In this document: piece after piece, positions 4,991-62,705 of the stretch | How the letters are laid out: the number at the start of each line of letters is the position of its first letter | Position numbering within the stretch: position 1 is the first letter of the stretch | Assembly (NCBI GenBank): GCA_013178415.1 | Contig: JABLXA010000004.1 | Coordinates: forward strand, 62,001-126,000 | From: Bacillota bacterium | GTDB taxonomy: Bacteria > Bacillota > SHA-98 > Ch115 | DNA length: 64,000 nucleotides | Direction of reading: 5' to 3' | Program-made: the position numbers and the translations under genes | The notes under the pieces: generated by a model | Told to the model about the DNA's origin: nothing | The model's input: only the letters and a program-made list of their open reading frames with translations | Databases searched by the model: none

Positions 4991-6325
4991 CTGAGTGTGG
5001 CTTTTGCCGCCAGTGAATCCAATTTCCTCGCATCCTCAAGGCGCAGATGATACCGGAAAAAGCGATGAGAATTCCCTATTCGGTATAAGGGTGATAGGCT
5101 TGAAGGCATGATATATCAATGCATGCACTCTCTCCTCGCGGCACACTACAGAAGGGTTCCCACATACTGAAATGACGAGCTTTGGACGTATAGTAAGAGC
5201 TTTACTCCAATCGATGGGTTTTGTGAGAAAATCGTCTAATTAGCCCTACCCTACCATATTGAATTGCTTTGGTCGTGGTCAGAAGGCTATCCGAATCGAA
5301 TTCATTTCCTTCCTCTTATCGAGGGCCCATCATGGTTATCGAGGTAGCCGATCACGGACTGGTACTGACGGACGTATGGACCTTCCACCTCAAAGGCACA
5401 CTCGCCCTCTCGTCCCTCGGGTCCATGCCATATGGCATAATCGCCCGGGCCGGACACGTCGGGCTCACGCCAAGGCTTCATAGACAACTCTCCCTTCTCT
5501 TCGAATCGTTTTGATGCAGGCTCTCTCATGCCGCATGGGGCAAGACATAAACTGTGACAAGATTGAGGCCTATGTAGCTTCTTATATGCAAGGGGTGGGG
5601 CTCCGAGAGAATATTGGAAATAAGGCTGGATTACGTAGGGCCCCAGAGAAAAATCTGCTATTCTGTGGGGTATTAAGCGCAATCTCACATGTTTTTAAGG
5701 CATGCCAGACCAAGATAGGTTTATATCGTCGTGAGCCATAGCGGTGAGCTGGACGACAACATGTCAAAGATGCTTAATAAGGAGAACTTCGGCAGGAGGA
5801 GGAACATCGAATTGCCATGTATGAGGACCTTCTTGAGCGAGGTAGGATAGCAATAAAAATCCCGGGTACATCTATTATCCTTAAGGAGGCGGTACATTTG
5901 GCCAGAGCGGTTTCTGGAGTGTCTTGAAGTCCCAATTTTGGTAGGGTTGATGTATGGCGTAAAAGCCATTTATCTACCGGGGAAGATTTTGAGTGGATCA
6001 TCAAAGATAGCCCAGATGGTAGATAATCACCCTATTGATGGGTTGGGTTTTGCTAATCATTTGCTAATGTACTATCTGAAATGACCTATCACGCGACGGA
6101 CAGATTAACATAGCGTACTGCTTAAAATGCAGCTAGTAGTAAACTCGAAAACTCGGCTCGTTCAATTTACATTTATCTGTAAAAGAGGCTATAAAGTGAT
6201 TGTAAAACTGATTGATTAAGTTGTTGATGATCTATTTCTACAGGGAGGCTCAAAATCCTTCTTCTTGGATGATAAAAACCGAGAAATATATGTGGCGACT
6301 ACATTATCTCCACTAAAAGCACGGG
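4991..6325. other. Degenerate DNA with short coding remnants, no intact gene seen
   Basis: I find no gene of recognisable family here. Three stretches look like worn coding sequence. On the minus strand 5481-5302 encodes a 59-residue frame with a plausible GGGAGA site. On the plus strand about 5785-5927 reads ELRQEEEHRIAMYEDLL and continues in a conserved-looking way before a stop. About 6220-6350 reads SKSFFLDDKNREIYVATT in a frame with an upstream stop. None can be tied to a function. Confidence 0.4.
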
Positions 6326-6877
6326 TGACAAGCTCTTGGCCAGATCTCTAAGGTGGGTGGCGAGTTATTGGTCATCCCAAACCGCTGGTGACGAGTTTTC
6401 GGTCACCCTAGACCGATGGTGGCGAGTCTCTGGGCAGGTTGCGCGCGGAAGTGACTGAGAATTCGTCAGCTTAGACCGAGGGTGACGAGACTGTAGGCAG
6501 GTCCCGCACGGAAGTGGCTAAAAATCCGTCAGCTTCCCCGCCAAGGTGGCGACATTCCCGTCAGGTTGGGATGATTTTGGAAAAGTCTGGGTCTATCTCA
6601 TCTTGAGCTAGCTAGAATTTAGGCAGGTTTTTCTCAAAGGTGGCCAAGATTTCGTCGGCCTCTGGTCCGTGCCGGCAGATTTCTCGCCACCTTGCCCTCA
6701 AATTGGAAGATTATAGGTTATGATTATCCATAATAAGGGATTTTGTAGCATATATTGGCCTGGAGTGGCGAGATTTTGGCCAGTTTGGACGCGGAAGTGG
6801 CTGGAATTTCGGCAGCATCTGCTCTCAAGTGCGAAAATCCTACCAGGCTCTACTCTCCGATGGCCAGAACCTAGGAG
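6326..6877. repeat. Array A: 18 helically phased TGRC-N9-GYCA dyads
   Basis: A 17-bp dyad (four bases, nine-base spacer, four bases) recurs with left halves at 6326, 6358, 6389, 6420, 6452, 6483, 6515, 6547, 6578, 6609, 6641, 6673, 6704, 6734, 6766, 6798, 6830 and 6861. Steps are 31 or 32 bp with one of 30, averaging 31.5 bp. Clear examples are TGAC-GAGTTTTCG-GTCA at 6389 and TGGC-GAGATTTTG-GCCA at 6766. The units at 6704 and 6734 are AT-rich and atypical, and the same two units are atypical in arrays B and C. The unit at 6830 has lost one spacer base. The region has stops in all frames, and a non-integral codon period rules out protein repeats. Confidence 0.85.
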
Positions 6878-7088
6878 ATTGCTCGAAAACTCTGACGACC
6901 TCTATATATTGTGGGATATAGCTTCTTTGGTAGGGTTTCCGAGCAGATTCCTAGGTCTGGGTTAATAAAACGCCAATTGTTCGGTCTGCCTCGCCTGCTT
7001 GGGCTGCCAGATTTTAGCACAGGTATATATGCGACAAAGGCCCTTGCAGACAGCGGGCCCGGAGAATGGTTAGCTGGGGGGCGCTACC

Positions 7089-18844: not shown

Positions 18845-18887
18845 TGCACTCCAACCTCTCCCACGAAATCCGTCATCGGTCTATTAC

Positions 18888-19040
18888 CGCTTTAATCGCG
18901 AAATCTATCATTGGTTTGTCATCGCGCTAATCACGAAATCTTTCTCCGGTTTGTTATCGCGTTAATCATGAGATTTGTTGTTGATTTGCCATCGCCTTAA
19001 TCTTGAAATCTATCATTGGTTTGTTACCGCGTTAATAAGG
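18888..19040. repeat. 35-bp tandem array with CGCG-TTAAT-CRCG dyads upstream of hisZ
   Basis: Five units have dyad starts at 18888, 18923, 18958, 18993 and 19028, each exactly 35 bp apart. The 13-bp core reads CGCT-TTAAT-CGCG, CGCG-CTAAT-CACG, CGCG-TTAAT-CATG, CGCC-TTAAT-CTTG and CGCG-TTAAT-AAGG, followed in each complete unit by ATCTATCATTGGTTTG or a variant. A partial unit extends to about 18863. The array sits between the yerC-like gene and hisZ, where a his promoter or operator is expected. Confidence 0.85.
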
Positions 19041-26700: not shown

Positions 26701-27316
26701 TGGCATAATTTTCGGCACCTGAGGGTAGAGGCCGCCGAAATTCCAGCCACCTCTGCATCCAAGTCGGCTAAAATCTCGCCACCTCCAGCTAAGATATACC
26801 ATAAAGTTCCTTCTTATGGATAATCATAACTTATAATCTTCCAATTCGAGGGCAGGGTGGCTAGAAATTCGCCACTCAGGTCCAGGGGCTGGCGAAATCT
26901 TGGCCACCCTTGAGCAAAACCTGCCTAAATCCTAGCCAGCTCAAGACGAACTTGATCCAGACTTTGCCAAAATCATCCCGACCTGACGAGAATATCACCA
27001 TCCCGATAAGGAAGCTGACAGATTTTTAGCCACTTCTGCGGGGGACCTGCCTGCAGTCTCGTCACCTTCGGTCTAGGCTGACGGATTTTTAGTCACTCCC
27101 GCGCGCAACCTGCCTAAAAGCTTGCCACCCCCGGTTTAAGCTGACGAATTCTCAGTCACTCCCGCGCGCAACCTGCCTAAAAGCTTGCCACCCCCGGTTT
27201 AAGCTGACGAATCTTCAGCTAACTGCGCGCGGGACCTGGCTAGAGACTCATCATCGGCGATTTGATGTGACCGGAAAATCGCCACATGTTTCGAGGAACT
27301 GGCCGAAATATCGCCG
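26701..27316. repeat. Array B: 20 helically phased TGRC-N9-GYCA dyads, inverted copy of array A
   Basis: Left halves lie at 26701, 26733, 26765, 26797, 26827, 26858, 26890, 26922, 26953, 26984, 27016, 27048, 27079, 27111, 27142, 27174, 27205, 27237, 27268 and 27300, an average of 31.5 bp. The reverse complement aligns with array A in register, including the AT-rich unit pair (26797 and 26827, with the same 30-bp step) and the conserved AATTGGAAGATTATA block. Two nearly identical 63-bp blocks (from 27111 and 27174) show recent duplication of a unit pair. No reading frame spans it. Confidence 0.85.
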
Positions 27317-48676: not shown

Positions 48677-48708
48677 AAAAAACCTTTCATCCCAACTGGG
48701 ACGAAAGG
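48677..48708 (-). terminator. First T-box terminator
   Basis: CCTTTCGTCCC pairs with GGGATGAAAGG across AGTT on the minus strand, followed by six T. Confidence 0.85.
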
Positions 48709-48988
48709 TAAACTTCCGTGGTGCCACCCAACTAGAGGATACAATCCTCCACTCGTCATAAGGTACAGGCAGTGAGGCTATATTTCTGCCGATACCCTCT
48801 CCTGTTAACGGCGGAGAAATCCGTTGAATCCTACCGGCGCTATCGCCCTCAGATCCACCCTCAGGGGCCCATTCACCATCCGCGTCCTGACCGGACTCAC
48901 ACCAGGCGCCGGCTCTCTTGCAGGCGGCAGGGTGGCTACTTCTCCCCATCACCGGTTTATCTAGCCATATGCCGTATGTTTGAAATCT

Positions 48989-49117: not shown

Positions 49118-49462
49118 CTACCTTAACCCTAAAAGAATGCGAAGTCTATATTCTACTGCCGCCATAGTGGATGGAGATACTGCGCCTAGTCGCGCTGTGA
49201 GCCTTTCCTTCGCCATAGATCGGATATCTTCACATTTTACAAAGCTCTTTTCCTTCAGGCCCCCTTCTGGAGGGTTGACCTCAACGTGGAAAGGGATGTC
49301 CTTTTTTCTTGTGGTTATTGGCAAGACAACGACAAGCTCCGCCGGACCATAATTGAAAGGATCTACAGAGACAACGAGGCCCGGCCTCTTGCCTGCCTGC
49401 TCGTGACCTCGAGCAGGATCTAGGTCAACGAGCCATATATCGCCCCGGGAAGGCTCAGGCAT
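49118..49462 (-). CDS. mazF: MazF/PemK-family endoribonuclease toxin
   Basis: A 114-residue toxin with the PemK fold: PSRGDIWLVDLDPARGHEQAGKRPGLVVS, VVVLPITTRKKDIPFHVEV and KSFVKCEDIRSMAKERL. The conserved Arg/Gly/Pro of the RGDIW start and the Thr in PITT correspond to the RNA-cleaving site. The ATG at 49462 has GGAGAG upstream and lies two bases from the stop of the antitoxin, so the pair is coupled. Family toxins cut single-stranded mRNA at short motifs; the motif here is unknown. Confidence 0.9.
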   Translation of the reverse strand: MPEPSRGDIWLVDLDPARGHEQAGKRPGLVVSVDPFNYGPAELVVVLPITTRKKDIPFHVEVNPPEGGLKEKSFVKCEDIRSMAKERLTARLGAVSPSTMAAVEYRLRILLGLR

Positions 49463-49464
49463 GA

Positions 49465-49713
49465 CTACCATCTCTCCAGTCCGTCGGTTGAGGCAATATC
49501 CCATGCCTTGCGTTCCTCAATCTCAGCCTTCCAAGCTTCCGAATCTTCCTTTAGCGCAGCAAAAGCCCTGTTAGCTTCTTCCAGGAAGCATTTGGTCCTA
49601 TACTCCTCAATCGCCTTATCAAGAAGGGATTGCATTGATTCCCCAGTGCGAGTTGCAAGCTCTTTGAGGGCCTTCCAGGTTTCATAATTGATTCTGACTG
49701 TTGTGCCCGGCAC
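49465..49713 (-). CDS. Ribbon-helix-helix antitoxin paired with MazF
   Basis: An 82-residue antitoxin. The first 45 residues look like a ribbon-helix-helix dimer (TTVRINYETWKALKELATRTGESMQSLLDKAIEEY). The C-terminal helix (ALKEDSEAWKAEIEERKAWD) probably blocks the toxin. An inverted repeat in its promoter is a likely autoregulatory operator. Confidence 0.85.
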   Translation of the reverse strand: MPGTTVRINYETWKALKELATRTGESMQSLLDKAIEEYRTKCFLEEANRAFAALKEDSEAWKAEIEERKAWDIASTDGLERW

Positions 49714-49867: not shown

Positions 49868-51754
49868 TCAGGATAATTTCCGATAAGCGGCGTAAAGCTT
49901 GTTCAAGTTCCTGAGGCTCACGTCCTCCAGTCCGCCGACGCGATTGCGCGCAAGCCAGAGCTCTCGATGTTCGTCAATGATCTCTGCGAGATCCAAAGAT
50001 AGCTCCCTCATCTTGCGCCTGACTTCGGGGGTCGGGCCCCCATGCTCTGAGGAGAGATGAAGCTTTATCTTGCCCAGTTTGCATGCATGAAGGAGCAACC
50101 TCGCTGCATTATAGAATTCTCGTCTTATGATATCTGCATCCTTGCACAACGGCTGGCTGTTTCTGAAAGTGTCCACTGCGCTTCTTATAGCCGCCACGGC
50201 CGCATCGAATCCCTCCGGTTCGATTCCTTCGACAAACCGCGTCTTGTCAAGATCCTCCATGAGAATCCTCGCCAGGACGCTGGCATTGGCTGTGGTTAGC
50301 CCGACAGCCTTGTAGACATTTCCCAGATCATAGAACGCCTTGCCAGAAAGTCCAGTATCATCCTGGAAAGCGAAGCGCGAGAGGGCCTTTGCGACATCCA
50401 GGTCCTTATTGTTTTCGTAATTCCAGGATACAGCAGCGCCGTAAAGGAAGCCGAGATAGCTGACCGGCTGGTAATTGATATGCCCATTATCTCCCCAATC
50501 AGTATTCAGATATCCCATAGCCCCATGTTTTTTCCCATTCTCCGCGGCATTTCTCAGATTTCCCAGGGCGTTTTCAGTGCGCCCTCCAATTGTGTTCCAT
50601 GCAGACGTTCCGGGACAAACATAGAAGGGGAGGCCAGATTTGGCGAATTTCTCGCCATGCGCATCGAAAGGATGTCCGGCCTCATATCCCCATTCGAGGG
50701 CGATGACATCCTTCGGAAGCTCTGGGATAAGCTCTGGCGCTTCCATTATGATATCGCCCCAGAACATCATTATGCGATTATGCTTTACCACCAGTTCATG
50801 GATTTTCATCAGGAAGTCGAAATATACCCGATGCTTGCCTTTGGATTCAACCAGTGCTTTGCTCCTCCCTTGTCCCAACTCAAATGTTTCATCACAGCCA
50901 ACATTGAACTGCTTGCTTGAGAAATAGGGAAGGAATTCGTCATACAAGCTGTCTAGGAATTCTAGACTATCGGGAACCGCGGGGCTCAATGAGAATGGCT
51001 CATCGTGCCTGCCTCCCCATGGGGTATCAAAACCCTCAGGGCATTCGGCCATGTGAATGTATTCTGGATGTTTGAGCCATGGGGTGAGGTGAGCGAAGGA
51101 GTTCTGGTTCGGTACCAATTCAATGAACCTTTCCTTGCAGAATGCATCCAGCGCGAGTATTTCTTCGCCGGTGAAGGGAGAGGCTCCGCGCCAGGGAATC
51201 GGATGCCGGAGGTATTCAAAGGTGTGTTCAGTGTATAGCTGGATCTGGTTTATCTTCAGATCCGCGAACCAGTCAACCAAGGCGAACAATGTATCCATCT
51301 TGGGGACCTTGCCCCTGCTTATATCCAGCATGACTCCGCGATTGGGGAAATCTGGCTCATCGGAAATATCGAGGCATGGCAGAGTGGCTTTGAATTGCAT
51401 GAGAAGTTGCTTCAATGTTGCAACTCCATAGAAGATTCCTTCCGGTAGATTTGATATTATGGCTATTTCTTCGGGTTTGATAGCCAATCTGTAGCTTCCC
51501 GTTTTGCCGCAAGAGATCTCGGGATCCAGCACAAGCCTGATCCGAGGTCCATTTGCGGCCCCATAGTCGTTTATCACGATCTTGCCTGTCACGTTGGTAT
51601 ATTCTGATAAAGCGCATTTCAACCGGTTTGCGATAAAAAGCATCTCCTTGGATATTTCGTATGGTATCAGTATGAACGTCACAGGGCTCAGGTCTGCGGT
51701 TCCTTCTAGACGCTGGATTTTCCTGGGGAAAGGGGCCAACAAGATCTCCTCCAC
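49868..51754 (-). CDS. Glycoside hydrolase family 20 beta-N-acetylhexosaminidase-like enzyme
   Basis: A 628-residue enzyme. The N-terminal GH20b-like domain ends with GIFYGVATLKQLL. The GH20 barrel follows with PDFPNRGVMLDISRGKVPKM, IELVPNQNSFAHL, FNVGCDETFELGQG (the Asp-Glu catalytic pair), VIALEWGYEAGHPF and YLNTDWGDNGHIN. The C-terminus is helical. No signal peptide is visible, so it would act inside the cell on imported GlcNAc-containing sugars. The GTG at 51754 has GGAGGTG six bases upstream. The gene is transcribed away from the P-type ATPase gene, with a 35-bp dyad array between them. Confidence 0.85.
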   Translation of the reverse strand: MEEILLAPFPRKIQRLEGTADLSPVTFILIPYEISKEMLFIANRLKCALSEYTNVTGKIVINDYGAANGPRIRLVLDPEISCGKTGSYRLAIKPEEIAIISNLPEGIFYGVATLKQLLMQFKATLPCLDISDEPDFPNRGVMLDISRGKVPKMDTLFALVDWFADLKINQIQLYTEHTFEYLRHPIPWRGASPFTGEEILALDAFCKERFIELVPNQNSFAHLTPWLKHPEYIHMAECPEGFDTPWGGRHDEPFSLSPAVPDSLEFLDSLYDEFLPYFSSKQFNVGCDETFELGQGRSKALVESKGKHRVYFDFLMKIHELVVKHNRIMMFWGDIIMEAPELIPELPKDVIALEWGYEAGHPFDAHGEKFAKSGLPFYVCPGTSAWNTIGGRTENALGNLRNAAENGKKHGAMGYLNTDWGDNGHINYQPVSYLGFLYGAAVSWNYENNKDLDVAKALSRFAFQDDTGLSGKAFYDLGNVYKAVGLTTANASVLARILMEDLDKTRFVEGIEPEGFDAAVAAIRSAVDTFRNSQPLCKDADIIRREFYNAARLLLHACKLGKIKLHLSSEHGGPTPEVRRKMRELSLDLAEIIDEHRELWLARNRVGGLEDVSLRNLNKLYAAYRKLS

Positions 51755-51852
51755 AGATAACACCTCCTATTTCTCTATCCGAAGCAGATTTTCTACGAAG
51801 GGACGAGGATTCCTCTTGCAATGGTGCGACAAGTTAAAGTTTTATGTGAGTG

Positions 51853-52075
51853 GTCACGACGTAACAACTGTTTGCAGATGGCAGATTGTCACGGCGTGAC
51901 GGGTTCAGGTTGTGAACATATTATCACGGGGTGACAACTGAGGTCGGAAAGCAGATTGTTAAAATATGATAGGTTGAGATCATGGGTGGATTGTCACACA
52001 ATGACAATTGTGCGCAAAGAGCAAAGTGTCATGGCGTGACAGCTTGAGGCTGCGCATGGATGGTCACAGGGTGAC
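51853..52075. repeat. 35-bp array of GTCAC-N3-GTGAC dyads between divergent genes
   Basis: Seven dyads start at 51853, 51888, 51923, 51958, 51993, 52028 and 52063, each exactly 35 bp apart. Cores read GTCAC-GAC-GTAAC, GTCAC-GGC-GTGAC, ATCAC-GGG-GTGAC, GTTAA-AAT-ATGAT, GTCAC-ACA-ATGAC, GTCAT-GGC-GTGAC and GTCAC-AGG-GTGAC. Weak extra units fit at 51818 and 52098. The intervening 22 bases vary freely. Confidence 0.85.
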
Positions 52076-52422
52076 ACTTATGTATGGGTGAATAGGTGAT
52101 TACGGGATGGATTTCAGGGGTAAAATCTGCCGATATTCCAGTAAGCGCAACCTTGACTATTCACCCTAGTTTGGGTAGTCTAGGGATTGGATTCTATTTT
52201 TGCCAGATAGGATCTCCTGGCTAGCCGGGCCAATCTTTTGCCACAGGGTTTTGTTGCCACAGGGTTTTGCCCTGCTAGAGTTTATTTCGCTGAATCCCAT
52301 GCCAGGCAGCAATATGGGCAGAAGTGTGGGGCGCGGAAGAATTCTGGCGACTTGGTGAATACTTTGATTGATTGGTCTAGTAACCATTCAGAGGGCCTAT
52401 CTTCAAGATCAGGAGGGTGTCT

Positions 52423-55314
52423 TTGTTGTCAGGTGTCAGGGCTATATCAGGCATCGGCGCCGAGGTCGAACCATATGACGCAAGAGATAGGGAGCGATCT
52501 CTGGCTGAGGCGCATACAATGGAGTTTGAGGAAGTTGCGCGAATTATGGGGGTGAATCTCGAGCATGGGCTTCCCTCCGAAGAAGCTGCCAAGAGACTGG
52601 CCAGGTATGGGCCGAATGCTCTTCAGGAGGAAAAGCCCAGAAGCATCCTTGAAATGCTTTTTGAGCAGTTCAAGGATTTTTTAGTTTTGATCCTTATAGC
52701 TTCCACTTTTATTGCCGCCCTGCTCGGGGAGATCCTGGATGCCGGGGTCATTCTGGTGATAGTTATACTAAATGCCATAATGGGACTCGTGCAGGAGAGA
52801 AGGGCAGAGAGGGCTTTGAGCGCCCTTAAGAAGATGGCCGCCCCCATAGCCACAGTGATTAGGGATGGGAAAACGCTGAAGGTCCCCGCGGCGGATCTCA
52901 CGCCGGGCGATGTGGTGGTGTTGCAGGCCGGTGATTTGATCCCCGCAGATATTCGTCTTTTTGAGGCAGTCAACTTGAAAGTCGACGAAGCGCCATTGAC
53001 AGGGGAATCGGTGCCGGTTGAAAAAGACGCAAGGGCGTTGCTCGAGCCTAAGAGCCCGCTGGGCGATAGGATCAACATGGCGTATATGGGGACTGTAGTA
53101 ACCTACGGCCGTGGCAGTGGGATTGTCACCTCCATAGGTATGGCCACTGAGATCGGCAAGATAGCAAAGCTTATTTCAACCTATGAGCAGGAAGAAACTC
53201 CTCTCCAGCGAAAACTCGGGGCCTTCGGCAAGTGGCTTGGGGTAGCCTGTCTTGCCATCTGCGCGCTGGTGTTTAGCCTTGGGCTCCTCAGGGGCGAGGC
53301 GCCTTTTGAGATGTTCATGACAGCCGTAAGCCTCGCGGTAGCCGCTATTCCAGAGGGACTGCCGGCAATAGTCACGGTGGTCCTTGCCCTGGGAGTTCAA
53401 AAGATGATAGCCAGAAATGCCATTATAAGGCGTCTCCCGGCCGTAGAAACCCTGGGGTGCGCGACTTACATATGTTCCGACAAGACTGGAACCCTTACGG
53501 AAAACAAGATGATGGTTGTTAAGGCTTATCTGGCGTCTGGGGAGGTTTTCGATGTTACAGGGAAGGGGTATGAGCCGGTCGGGGAATTTCGATTATCTCG
53601 CTCATCTGGCGGCGGGGCCGACGGCGGTGCAGTTGGTGAATCCCGCCTGCGCGAGGCTTCAGGTAATGTGGCTAACGACCAGCCGAGCCTGTCTGATGGT
53701 CAGGGAGAGCTGGCTGGTAAGCGGCGGGAATCGGTGAATCCCCTTGAGGATGAGGAGCTAAAGCTTCTTTTGACGATCGGCGCGGCCTGTAATGACGCGT
53801 CCATTCAGAAAAAAGCTGATGGCACCTATGATATTGTGGGAGATCCCACGGAGGGAGCCCTTGTGGTCTTGGCTGAAAAGGGCGGTATTTCAGTTGATCA
53901 GTTGAGGAAGAAGGCGCAAAGGCTCCAGGAGATCCCATTTGACTCACACCGCAAGCGGATGACCACGATCCACAATTATTCTGGGACCACATATGCCTTT
54001 GTGAAGGGCGCTCCGGACATCTTGCTGTCATTGTCGACTCATTATTTGACCCGTACCGGGATAGCGCGCCTAGATGACACTAAGCGACAGGATTTTGCCC
54101 GGAATCTTGAGGAAATGGCGGCATCCGGCCTCAGAACTCTGGGGATGGCTTATCGTAAACTTGATAAGGTGCCGCAAGAATTAAAACCTGAGGAGATCGA
54201 AATTGATCTGGTATTTGTCGGCGCAGTAGGAATGATGGATCCCGTAAGGCAGGATGTTGCTCCTGCCGTCAGGGTGTGCCAGCAAGCCGGTATTCGTCCA
54301 GTCATGATCACCGGTGACTATCCGCTTACAGCCAGGGCGATTGCGAAAGAGCTTGGGATGCTTGGCGAATCCGGAAGGGTGCTCTCTGGGCCAGAATTAG
54401 AGGCCATCTCCGACGATGAGTTGGATGAATTGGTGGAACAGGTGAGGGTTTATGCCAGGGTTTCACCTGAACATAAATTGAGAATAGTTGAATCTCTCAA
54501 GAGGCGAGGCCAAGTGGTAGCCATGACAGGTGACGGGGTTAATGATGCTCCGGCCCTGAGAAAGGCCGATATTGGCGTCGCCATGGGCATAACTGGCACG
54601 GATGTGGCAAAAGGCGCATCTGATATGATCCTGACTGATGACAATTTTGCCAGCATTGTTGCCGCCGTGGAGCAGGGGAGGACCATCTTTGAAAACATAC
54701 GCAAGTTCATAATCTACCTTCTCTCCTGTAATATTGGGGAACTCCTGATATTTCTCATCGCGATCTTGGCCGGCCTTCCAAGGCCTCTTGTGCCGGTCCA
54801 GATCTTGATGATAAACTTGGTGACTGATGGACTTCCTGCACTGGCGCTAGGTGTTGAGCCGGCTGAGCCCGGGATCATGAACGTCCCGCCGAGGGATCCT
54901 AAGGAAGGTATACTTAATGGCCCTGTGATCGCGCGCCTGGTTTTCATTGGCGCCTTGATTGCCATCGCCACGTTAACGCCACTATTCTTTGCGGAAAGAT
55001 GGGGCATCCCGGTAGAGAGGGCGCGGACCATGGCCTTTGCCACAATGGGATTTGCAGAGCTATGGCGAGCCTTGGGGAGCAGGTCGGAGAGGAGATTCGT
55101 ATTTACTCTATCTCCTCTATCTAATCCACAGCTAGTGGTAGCCATTGGGCTTTCCGCGCTCCTTATCCTAATGACCATCACTATTGGCGGTCTCGCCGAA
55201 TTGTTTGAGATGAGCCCATTGACTGGACATGAATGGGAGGAAATCATGCTTATGAGCCTCATTCCTCTTGCAGGTACTGAGTTGCTTAAGATAAGGTTCA
55301 TGTCGAGGTCATAG
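52423..55314 (+). CDS. P-type calcium-transporting ATPase (SERCA/PMCA-like)
   Basis: A 963-residue P2-type ATPase. It has the actuator motif LTGESVPV, the phosphorylation motif ICSDKTGTLTENKMMV, KGAPDILL in the nucleotide domain, MITGDYPLTARAIAKELGML and MTGDGVNDAPALRKADIGVAM. The membrane motif VAAIPEGLPAIVTVVLALG is typical of calcium pumps. The nucleotide domain has an insertion of about 50 Gly/Ser-rich residues after YEPVGEF. It pumps calcium or manganese out of the cytoplasm. AGGAGG lies just before the GTG at 52417, so the TTG at 52423 is a likelier start. Confidence 0.93.
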   Translation: MLSGVRAISGIGAEVEPYDARDRERSLAEAHTMEFEEVARIMGVNLEHGLPSEEAAKRLARYGPNALQEEKPRSILEMLFEQFKDFLVLILIASTFIAALLGEILDAGVILVIVILNAIMGLVQERRAERALSALKKMAAPIATVIRDGKTLKVPAADLTPGDVVVLQAGDLIPADIRLFEAVNLKVDEAPLTGESVPVEKDARALLEPKSPLGDRINMAYMGTVVTYGRGSGIVTSIGMATEIGKIAKLISTYEQEETPLQRKLGAFGKWLGVACLAICALVFSLGLLRGEAPFEMFMTAVSLAVAAIPEGLPAIVTVVLALGVQKMIARNAIIRRLPAVETLGCATYICSDKTGTLTENKMMVVKAYLASGEVFDVTGKGYEPVGEFRLSRSSGGGADGGAVGESRLREASGNVANDQPSLSDGQGELAGKRRESVNPLEDEELKLLLTIGAACNDASIQKKADGTYDIVGDPTEGALVVLAEKGGISVDQLRKKAQRLQEIPFDSHRKRMTTIHNYSGTTYAFVKGAPDILLSLSTHYLTRTGIARLDDTKRQDFARNLEEMAASGLRTLGMAYRKLDKVPQELKPEEIEIDLVFVGAVGMMDPVRQDVAPAVRVCQQAGIRPVMITGDYPLTARAIAKELGMLGESGRVLSGPELEAISDDELDELVEQVRVYARVSPEHKLRIVESLKRRGQVVAMTGDGVNDAPALRKADIGVAMGITGTDVAKGASDMILTDDNFASIVAAVEQGRTIFENIRKFIIYLLSCNIGELLIFLIAILAGLPRPLVPVQILMINLVTDGLPALALGVEPAEPGIMNVPPRDPKEGILNGPVIARLVFIGALIAIATLTPLFFAERWGIPVERARTMAFATMGFAELWRALGSRSERRFVFTLSPLSNPQLVVAIGLSALLILMTITIGGLAELFEMSPLTGHEWEEIMLMSLIPLAGTELLKIRFMSRS

Positions 55315-62105: not shown

Positions 62106-62117
62106 AAAAGTATGGGC

Positions 62118-62583
62118 TGGCGAAAATTCCATCACTTTCTGGGCAAACATGGCGAAATCCTCGCCAGCTCAAATCAGGGGTGGCGTGTTTTTAGGCAGGA
62201 TCTGTGTGAAGATGGCGAGGATTTCGGCAGCCTCCTCTCAGAGGTGGCGAAATAGTCGTCAGGTCGGGGCGATTCTGGGAGATCTTGGGTAGATTTTACC
62301 TACAGGTGGCTGAAATCTCGTCAGGTCTTGTCGAGAGGTGGCGGCAATGCCGCCAGTCTTCGTTCCCGGATGGCGAAATCTTCGCCACCTCATGTCCAAA
62401 TTGGAAGATTCAAGGAGGTGATTATCCAGTATAATACAGTTTATGGTATATATTGGGCCAGGGTGACGATATTTCGATCAGGCTGAAGGCAAGACTGGCG
62501 ATATTCTGGCCAGGATGAGGGCAGAGCTGGCGATGGTTTCGCCATTTGCCAGTCTGCGTTCAGGGGTGACGCCATATTCGTCA
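62118..62583. repeat. Array C: 14 clear TGRC-N9-GYCA dyads, third copy of the phased array
   Basis: Left halves at 62118, 62150, 62181, 62213, 62245, 62276, 62307, 62339, 62371, 62402, 62464, 62496, 62528 and 62567, with a weak unit at about 62433. Steps are 31 or 32 bp except the last (39). Six cores are exact palindromes, for example TGGC-GATATTCTG-GCCA at 62496. The AATTGGAAGATT block matches arrays A and B. The last two units lie about 350 bp before polA. Confidence 0.85.
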
Positions 62584-62705
62584 TCTATCTCGATGTTTTT
62601 AAACTAGCTTCTGTGATAATCTTGTCGCACCAGGCGGCTAGCAGCGCGGCGCAAAGAAATATTTTACTAGTGAATTCATCTTCTCGGTCACAAAGAAGTT
62701 ATGCG

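Follow-up and report, generated by a model that had tools for sequence, protein, structure and literature searches.

An array of seven short dyads lies between two divergently transcribed genes, one encoding a glycoside hydrolase of family 20 (GH20) and the other a P2-type cation ATPase, in a 64-kb window (the whole stretch of DNA that was analysed). The locus raises the question of whether this array is an operator that belongs to the two genes beside it or one member of something more widely distributed in the genome.

The array in the window

The first-pass annotation described seven dyads of the form GTCAC-N3-GTGAC separated by exact 35-bp steps, a description that is borne out, with six good dyads and a degenerate fourth one that is in phase with the others (Table 1). 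All six sites with at most one mismatch that are present in the window are located inside the array; in shuffled sequence, such sites number 0.87 per 64 kb, and none are paired at 35 bp. The chance expectation of such an array is about 1e-24 for this word and this step, and about 1e-19 after a generous correction.

Two further details of the initial description have to be revised. The 22 bases between the dyads were said to be free to vary, but odd units resemble odd units and even units resemble even units (12.0 vs 8.3 of 25 non-core positions), and this alternation gives the array a higher-order repeat of 70 bp. The array was also said to fill the intergenic region, of which it occupies 223 of about 653 bp. 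In addition, a perfect tandem 16-bp duplication, TTGCCACAGGGTTTTG, is found at positions 52238-52269 of the window, between the array and the ATPase gene.

In a CRISPR array, repeats of about 25-40 bp are nearly identical and the spacers between them are unique. A CRISPR array or a relic of one was considered for the locus and rejected: the conserved part consists of the 13-bp dyads only, and the spacers are related to each other in alternation.

Table 1. Features of the window. Mismatches of the dyads are scored over the ten fixed bases of GTCAC-N3-GTGAC.
Feature	Position in the window	Strand	Details
T1 phased dyad array	51853..52075	.	Seven units, 35-bp steps; model R1 matches
Dyad 1, GTCACGACGTAAC	51853..51865	.	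1 mismatch
Dyad 2, GTCACGGCGTGAC	51888..51900	.	0 mismatches
Dyad 3, ATCACGGGGTGAC	51923..51935	.	1 mismatch
Dyad 4, GTTAAAATATGAT, degenerate	51958..51970	.	4 mismatches, in phase
Dyad 5, GTCACACAATGAC	51993..52005	.	1 mismatch; 0 to RTCAY-N3-RTGAY
Dyad 6, GTCATGGCGTGAC	52028..52040	.	1 mismatch; 0 to RTCAY-N3-RTGAY
Dyad 7, GTCACAGGGTGAC	52063..52075	.	0 mismatches
Flanking gene, GH20 (glycoside hydrolase family 20)	49868..51763	-	Pfam PF00728, PF02838; start 90 bp from the array
Flanking gene, P2-type cation (calcium-like) ATPase	52417..55314	+	Pfam, NCBIfam; start ~340 bp from the array
T2 mobile array element, 825 bp	6133..6957	.	Model R2 matches 6323-6874; near-identical copy on contig C8
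Second T2 array	26701..27315	.	Appears between convergent genes
Third T2 array	62115..62585	.	T2 model match

A dispersed family of arrays

A search for the same dyad array elsewhere in the genome, which the first-pass annotation had proposed, revealed four further loci. The genome (G000, 3.57 Mb) was searched for two dyads 35 bp apart and then with a sequence model, R1, of two adjacent units, and contains exactly five arrays of this family, hereafter T1, on contigs C4 (the window), C1, C11, C17 and C27. Model R1 also identified two T1 arrays in G003, a genome of the same order and of another family, and no such array in 19 further genomes from the same order, class and phylum.

The T1 dyads follow the consensus RTCAY-N3-RTGAY, which extends weakly and symmetrically to about 25 bp. 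Over the seven arrays, the steps measure 34 bp (20 times), 35 bp (23 times), 24 or 25 bp (5 times) and 44 bp (once); these lengths are spaced roughly one helical turn from each other, and the few remaining steps include weak sites. Compensatory changes between the two arms of T1 units show no excess over column-shuffled controls at any position pair (P 0.14 to 1). Because the arms do not covary and the steps are about one turn apart, a dimer site on duplex DNA fits T1 better than a hairpin does. Outside the arrays, exact dyads are not in excess: 22 of 30 are within the five T1 arrays and 8 are elsewhere, vs about 14 expected by chance, which makes T1 unlike an ordinary regulon.

None of the T1 arrays is a colinear copy of another, and all are old, the window copy included. 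The array of the window is one copy of a dispersed intergenic family and not a private operator. Hence, the multi-site operator suggested at first survives in part: the units do look like sites for a protein, with constraint on the dyad as well as on the spacing, the steps changing by about one turn, but an operator reserved for the GH20 and ATPase genes is contradicted by the presence of the same array at four other loci of G000 and two of G003. Furthermore, T1 sites are absent upstream of the ATPase orthologues of three relatives (G001-G003), in which no GH20 orthologue was found, hence the array did not come with the ATPase. An origin of the array ancestral to the ATPase gene was rejected, as the orthologues are without it, and, unlike a simple operator of the flanking genes, the array is not conserved with the ATPase in G001-G003.

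A winged-helix protein with an endonuclease-like domain

The largest T1 array, of about 15 units on contig C1, ends 168 bp upstream of the gene of a 250-residue protein, P0001 (G000:C1:173251-174000). The T1 array on contig C2 of G003 is likewise directly upstream of a P0001 homologue, which is 49% identical over the winged helix and 62% identical over the rest. This homologue (L052 5455-6392) appears to be split by a non-homologous stretch of about 200 bp, possibly a dispersed repeat.

The N-terminal half of P0001 is a MarR-like winged helix (wHTH), and a PDB sequence search with the protein returned winged-helix regulators only. Profile comparison relates the C-terminal half to endonuclease-like domains found in phages and other viruses (probability 99.6, E 7.7e-24). 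A scan of viral sequences gave no match with one protein as the query and, with the alignment, matched essentially the C-terminal domain; PADLOC gave no match. Residues E147, D149, E159, Q164, H165, D185 and K188 are invariant in 19 homologues, and D149, E159, G162, Q164, H165, D185 and K188 are invariant in the homologues and the viral relatives alike, the D, E, Q, H, D and K being invariant in 18 viral relatives. Judged by these alignments, the conserved acidic, His and Lys positions of the EDxHD/Vsr superfamily are present in the C-terminal domain.

The structural comparison was made with a model of the domain of a viral relative (pLDDT 86.6) and not with P0001 itself. This model resembles two Vsr entries (Z 10.5, rmsd 5.5 A over 120 residues; Z 9.4, rmsd 2.8 A over 104) as well as I-Bth0305I, a homing endonuclease of the EDxHD type (Z 9.8, rmsd 3.2 A over 95), and its Vsr and I-Bth0305I scores are above most others in the comparison; Foldseek alone gave a weak match with the viral-domain model (E 0.74). 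P0001 is most likely the cognate binder of the T1 dyads. Upstream of many wHTH/endonuclease-like genes (e.g., L129, L130, L132 and L146), a recurring TATGGTATAATATGG-like box is found just 5′ of the start codon, perhaps a conserved promoter.

Paralogues and homologues with arrays of their own

In G000, the wHTH/endonuclease-like protein is present as four paralogues, P0001 included, and paralogues 2, 3 and 4 are preceded by arrays of other dyads. The array upstream of the paralogue at C2:37712 is composed of TGRCGA-N5-TCGYCA at 31/32-bp steps (family T2), while the paralogues on C43 and C3, which are 82-86% identical to each other, have common AGTGCT-N7-AGCACT-like dyads at 32 bp (family T3). 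The 31.5-bp arrays had been contrasted with the 35-bp array; they are in fact sister families with a paralogous protein.

In other genomes of the class, a CTGGTCC-N5-GGACCAG dyad is located upstream of the homologues of G006 and G014, a GTGGTAGAAAAACTACCAC dyad is found in G012 and a similar one in G010. The homologues of G009 and G004 are preceded by arrays of TGCAT-N3-ATGCA, a dyad related to that of T1, at 34/35-bp steps, and the homologues of G003 (contig C9), G008 and G016 have other upstream dyads. Closely related proteins have the same dyads and distant ones do not. In the pairs G009/G004 and G006/G014, each of which has common dyads, the flanking genes are conserved, indicating that gene and array were inherited in place.

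The link between arrays and protein does not depend on a given dyad sequence. Scored blind to that sequence, a 28-37 bp periodicity is present upstream of 14 of the 16 in-class homologues with readable upstream DNA (contig ends cut some regions) vs 16 of 173 control windows, some of the latter probably being outer parts of arrays. Some of the in-class scores come partly from other repeats, of 11 bp in G009 and G004 and of 53 bp in G015; in G009 and G004, the dyad chains can be read directly despite the 11-bp repeat. Similarly, TRF detected upstream repeats for 15 of 19 in-class homologues vs 11 of 110 controls. Within the class, the arrays are linked to this protein family. Outside the class, in the rest of the phylum, 7 of 39 homologues are periodic upstream vs the same 16 of 173 controls and TRF revealed no excess of upstream repeats, hence cognate arrays as a phylum-wide trait of the protein are unsupported beyond the class by either measure.

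Dispersal and constraint of the sister families

Sequence models place T2 (TGRCGA) arrays at about 28 loci of G000 and T3 (AGTGCT) arrays at about 12. In G009, which encodes a homologue 59% identical to the C2 protein, related arrays have steps of 32, 41 and 52 bp, one turn apart. All mapped arrays are intergenic and are found between tandem, divergent and convergent genes about as often as a neutral distribution would predict, the orientation counts being approximate as they rely on a conservative and crude gene caller. Since T2 and T3 arrays are also found between convergent genes, a role as promoter-only elements was rejected for these two families. In two intergenic regions (G000:C17:111926-112652 and G000:C4:141902-142282), two different array families are located side by side.

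The 825-bp T2 element of the window matches G000:C8:181094-181920 at 99.8% identity; the match ends sharply and the flanks are unrelated, demonstrating that this unit transposed recently. No target-site duplication was seen at the element, which has only a faint terminal inverted repeat and is without an open frame of its own. The evidence of mobility comes from the sister family T2 only. In 115 pairs of older colinear T2 copies, which are not independent of each other, the half-site bases of the dyads differ by 16.1% and the remaining bases by 23.8%, the core being the lower of the two in 111 of the 115 pairs. The dyads are therefore under constraint in the dispersed T2 copies.

Alternative explanations

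The explanation that we favour, and hold to be probable, is that the arrays are non-autonomous, protein-bound elements, each family being coupled to one single-copy nuclease-like protein, and that the array of the window is an old dispersed copy. Its main rival is a multi-site operator of a carbohydrate regulon, in which the C1 protein or another dimeric regulator would control sugar genes (GH20, GH42, FGGY kinases, fucose-isomerase-like and ROK genes) and the arrays would have spread by selection and not by mobility. All five T1 arrays located away from nuclease-like genes (four in G000 and one in G003) adjoin carbohydrate genes, and such genes make up 6 of the 10 nearest genes for T1 vs 2 of 20 sampled for T2/T3 (p ~0.007, from few loci). 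None of the T1 arrays outside nuclease-like genes sits between convergent genes. This bias towards carbohydrate genes fits regulation better than random insertion; moreover, the T1 steps keep the helical phase, and no more than 90 bp separate the GH20 start from the array. However, T1 loci are few, dyads outside the arrays are no commoner than expected by chance, the sister families also occur between convergent genes and beside housekeeping genes, and one sister element was recently transposed as a unit. Nor does a regulator need a domain in which all the nuclease-like residues are invariant. A regulon of this kind is rather unlikely; co-option of the window array as a control region for sugar genes, GH20 among them, is a live possibility.

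Two other explanations fare less well. The arrays could be passive repeats moved by an unrelated transposase, the nuclease-like genes merely being near some copies and the dyads being relics of tandem growth. The T2 element, with its sharp ends, its recent copy and no open frame of its own, would suit such a repeat, and its mobilisation by a nuclease-like protein is putative. This explanation is nevertheless improbable, because nearly every homologue of the class has an upstream array with its own dyad, compared to about one in ten control windows, because the choice of dyad follows the relatedness of the proteins, and because the dyads have diverged less than the remainder of colinear T2 copies. 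Structural hairpins in RNA or single-stranded DNA, i.e., tandem stem-loops as in attenuators or REP-like folds, are suggested by the palindromic form of the dyads with their three-base loops, but we give them very little credence: complementarity between the arms does not exceed that of the column-shuffled controls, the steps preserve a helical phase that matters for duplex DNA, the arrays occur in every gene orientation and no Rfam match was found at the window array.

Comparison with known systems

REPIN/RAYT serves as the model for repeat populations that a single-copy, domesticated enzyme keeps in a genome. There, palindromic elements dispersed over the genome are maintained by an enzyme with a single, vertically inherited gene, next to which lies a cluster of that enzyme's own elements (PMC3116915, PMC8049555). 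The arrays described here are likewise palindromic, extragenic and dispersed, with a cluster adjoining the presumed cognate gene, each family has one single-copy gene that is inherited in place, and several families with different palindromes are present in one genome. Unlike RAYT, the protein resembles a winged-helix Vsr/EDxHD endonuclease and not a Y1 (HUH) tyrosine transposase, and, where a REPIN is a pair of hairpins, each element here consists of many duplex dyads in a phased arrangement 200-800 bp long, the T1 arms being without covariation. Because these two defining features, the Y1 transposase and the hairpin, are lacking, the arrays and their proteins do not belong to REPIN/RAYT, although by analogy they would work like it.

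The invariant acidic, His and Lys positions and the catalytic-domain fold, the latter predicted from the model of viral relatives, are reminiscent of Vsr and of EDxHD homing endonucleases such as I-Bth0305I. The EDxHD enzyme I-Bth0305I forms a dimer on a target that spans nearly 60 bp, and I-TevI, another homing endonuclease, represses its own gene (PMC3943268). In contrast to Vsr and these homing endonucleases, the proteins studied here are encoded by chromosomal single-copy genes, carry an N-terminal MarR-like winged helix and have cognate dyad arrays, and no intron or intein context was seen for their genes.

The repeated upstream dyads at a fixed helical phase also resemble multi-site operators of dimeric repressors, from which the arrays differ by their many units, by their dispersal (including between convergent genes), by the lack of a single-site excess and by the transposition of a sister array. 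Similarly, the T2 arrays are non-coding, intergenic and copied as units, as are MITEs and other miniature mobile elements, but they lack a target-site duplication, their terminal inverted repeat is faint, and their body is an ordered phased dyad array under constraint.

A proposed mechanism

In the proposed mechanism, a P0001 dimer would bind each T1 dyad, and the 34.5-bp steps, plus or minus one turn, would hold neighbouring dimers at a constant angle, leading to an ordered nucleoprotein array. Binding to the array in front of its own gene could provide autoregulation of the C1 gene. The other arrays would move non-autonomously, the protein plausibly assisting their copying by cleaving the bound or the target DNA, and the window copy would be a resident array, possibly taken up as a regulatory region of GH20. 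Dyad binding, the dimer geometry, cleavage, mobilisation by the protein and an effect on GH20 are what we infer from the computational results on the array families, their phasing and their proteins.

A broader and more tentative proposal, to which we give somewhat less than even chances, is that of an undescribed two-part system in which winged-helix endonucleases of the EDxHD type, encoded by single-copy genes and each reading a dyad code of its own, maintain, copy and are regulated by helically phased, dispersed dyad arrays, with several pairs in one genome and some arrays recruited for control in promoter regions. No description of such an array-protein system was found in the open-access literature. 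If true, it would be a second pairing of this sort, chemically unrelated to REPIN/RAYT, with several pairs per genome and a dyad code that can be read for each protein. Such a system would allow the persistence of repeat populations, the co-evolution of protein and palindrome, and the timing with which arrays become gene-control regions to be tested. The 35-bp array and the 31.5-bp arrays of the window would then be covered by one account, as families of the same thing.

Other features of the window

Five 35-bp units (approximately CGAAATCTATCATTGGTTTGTCATCGCGTTAATC) at positions 18862-19036 of the window are similar to the phased arrays; they match none of the three families, and no cognate gene was found for them. 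Closer to the GH20 gene, a PemK/MazF-type toxin gene is located at 49118-49713 (-) with a small upstream gene that is likely its antitoxin, and a T-box leader (Rfam RF00230, 104.5 bits) is found upstream of trpE at 48694-48961 (-).
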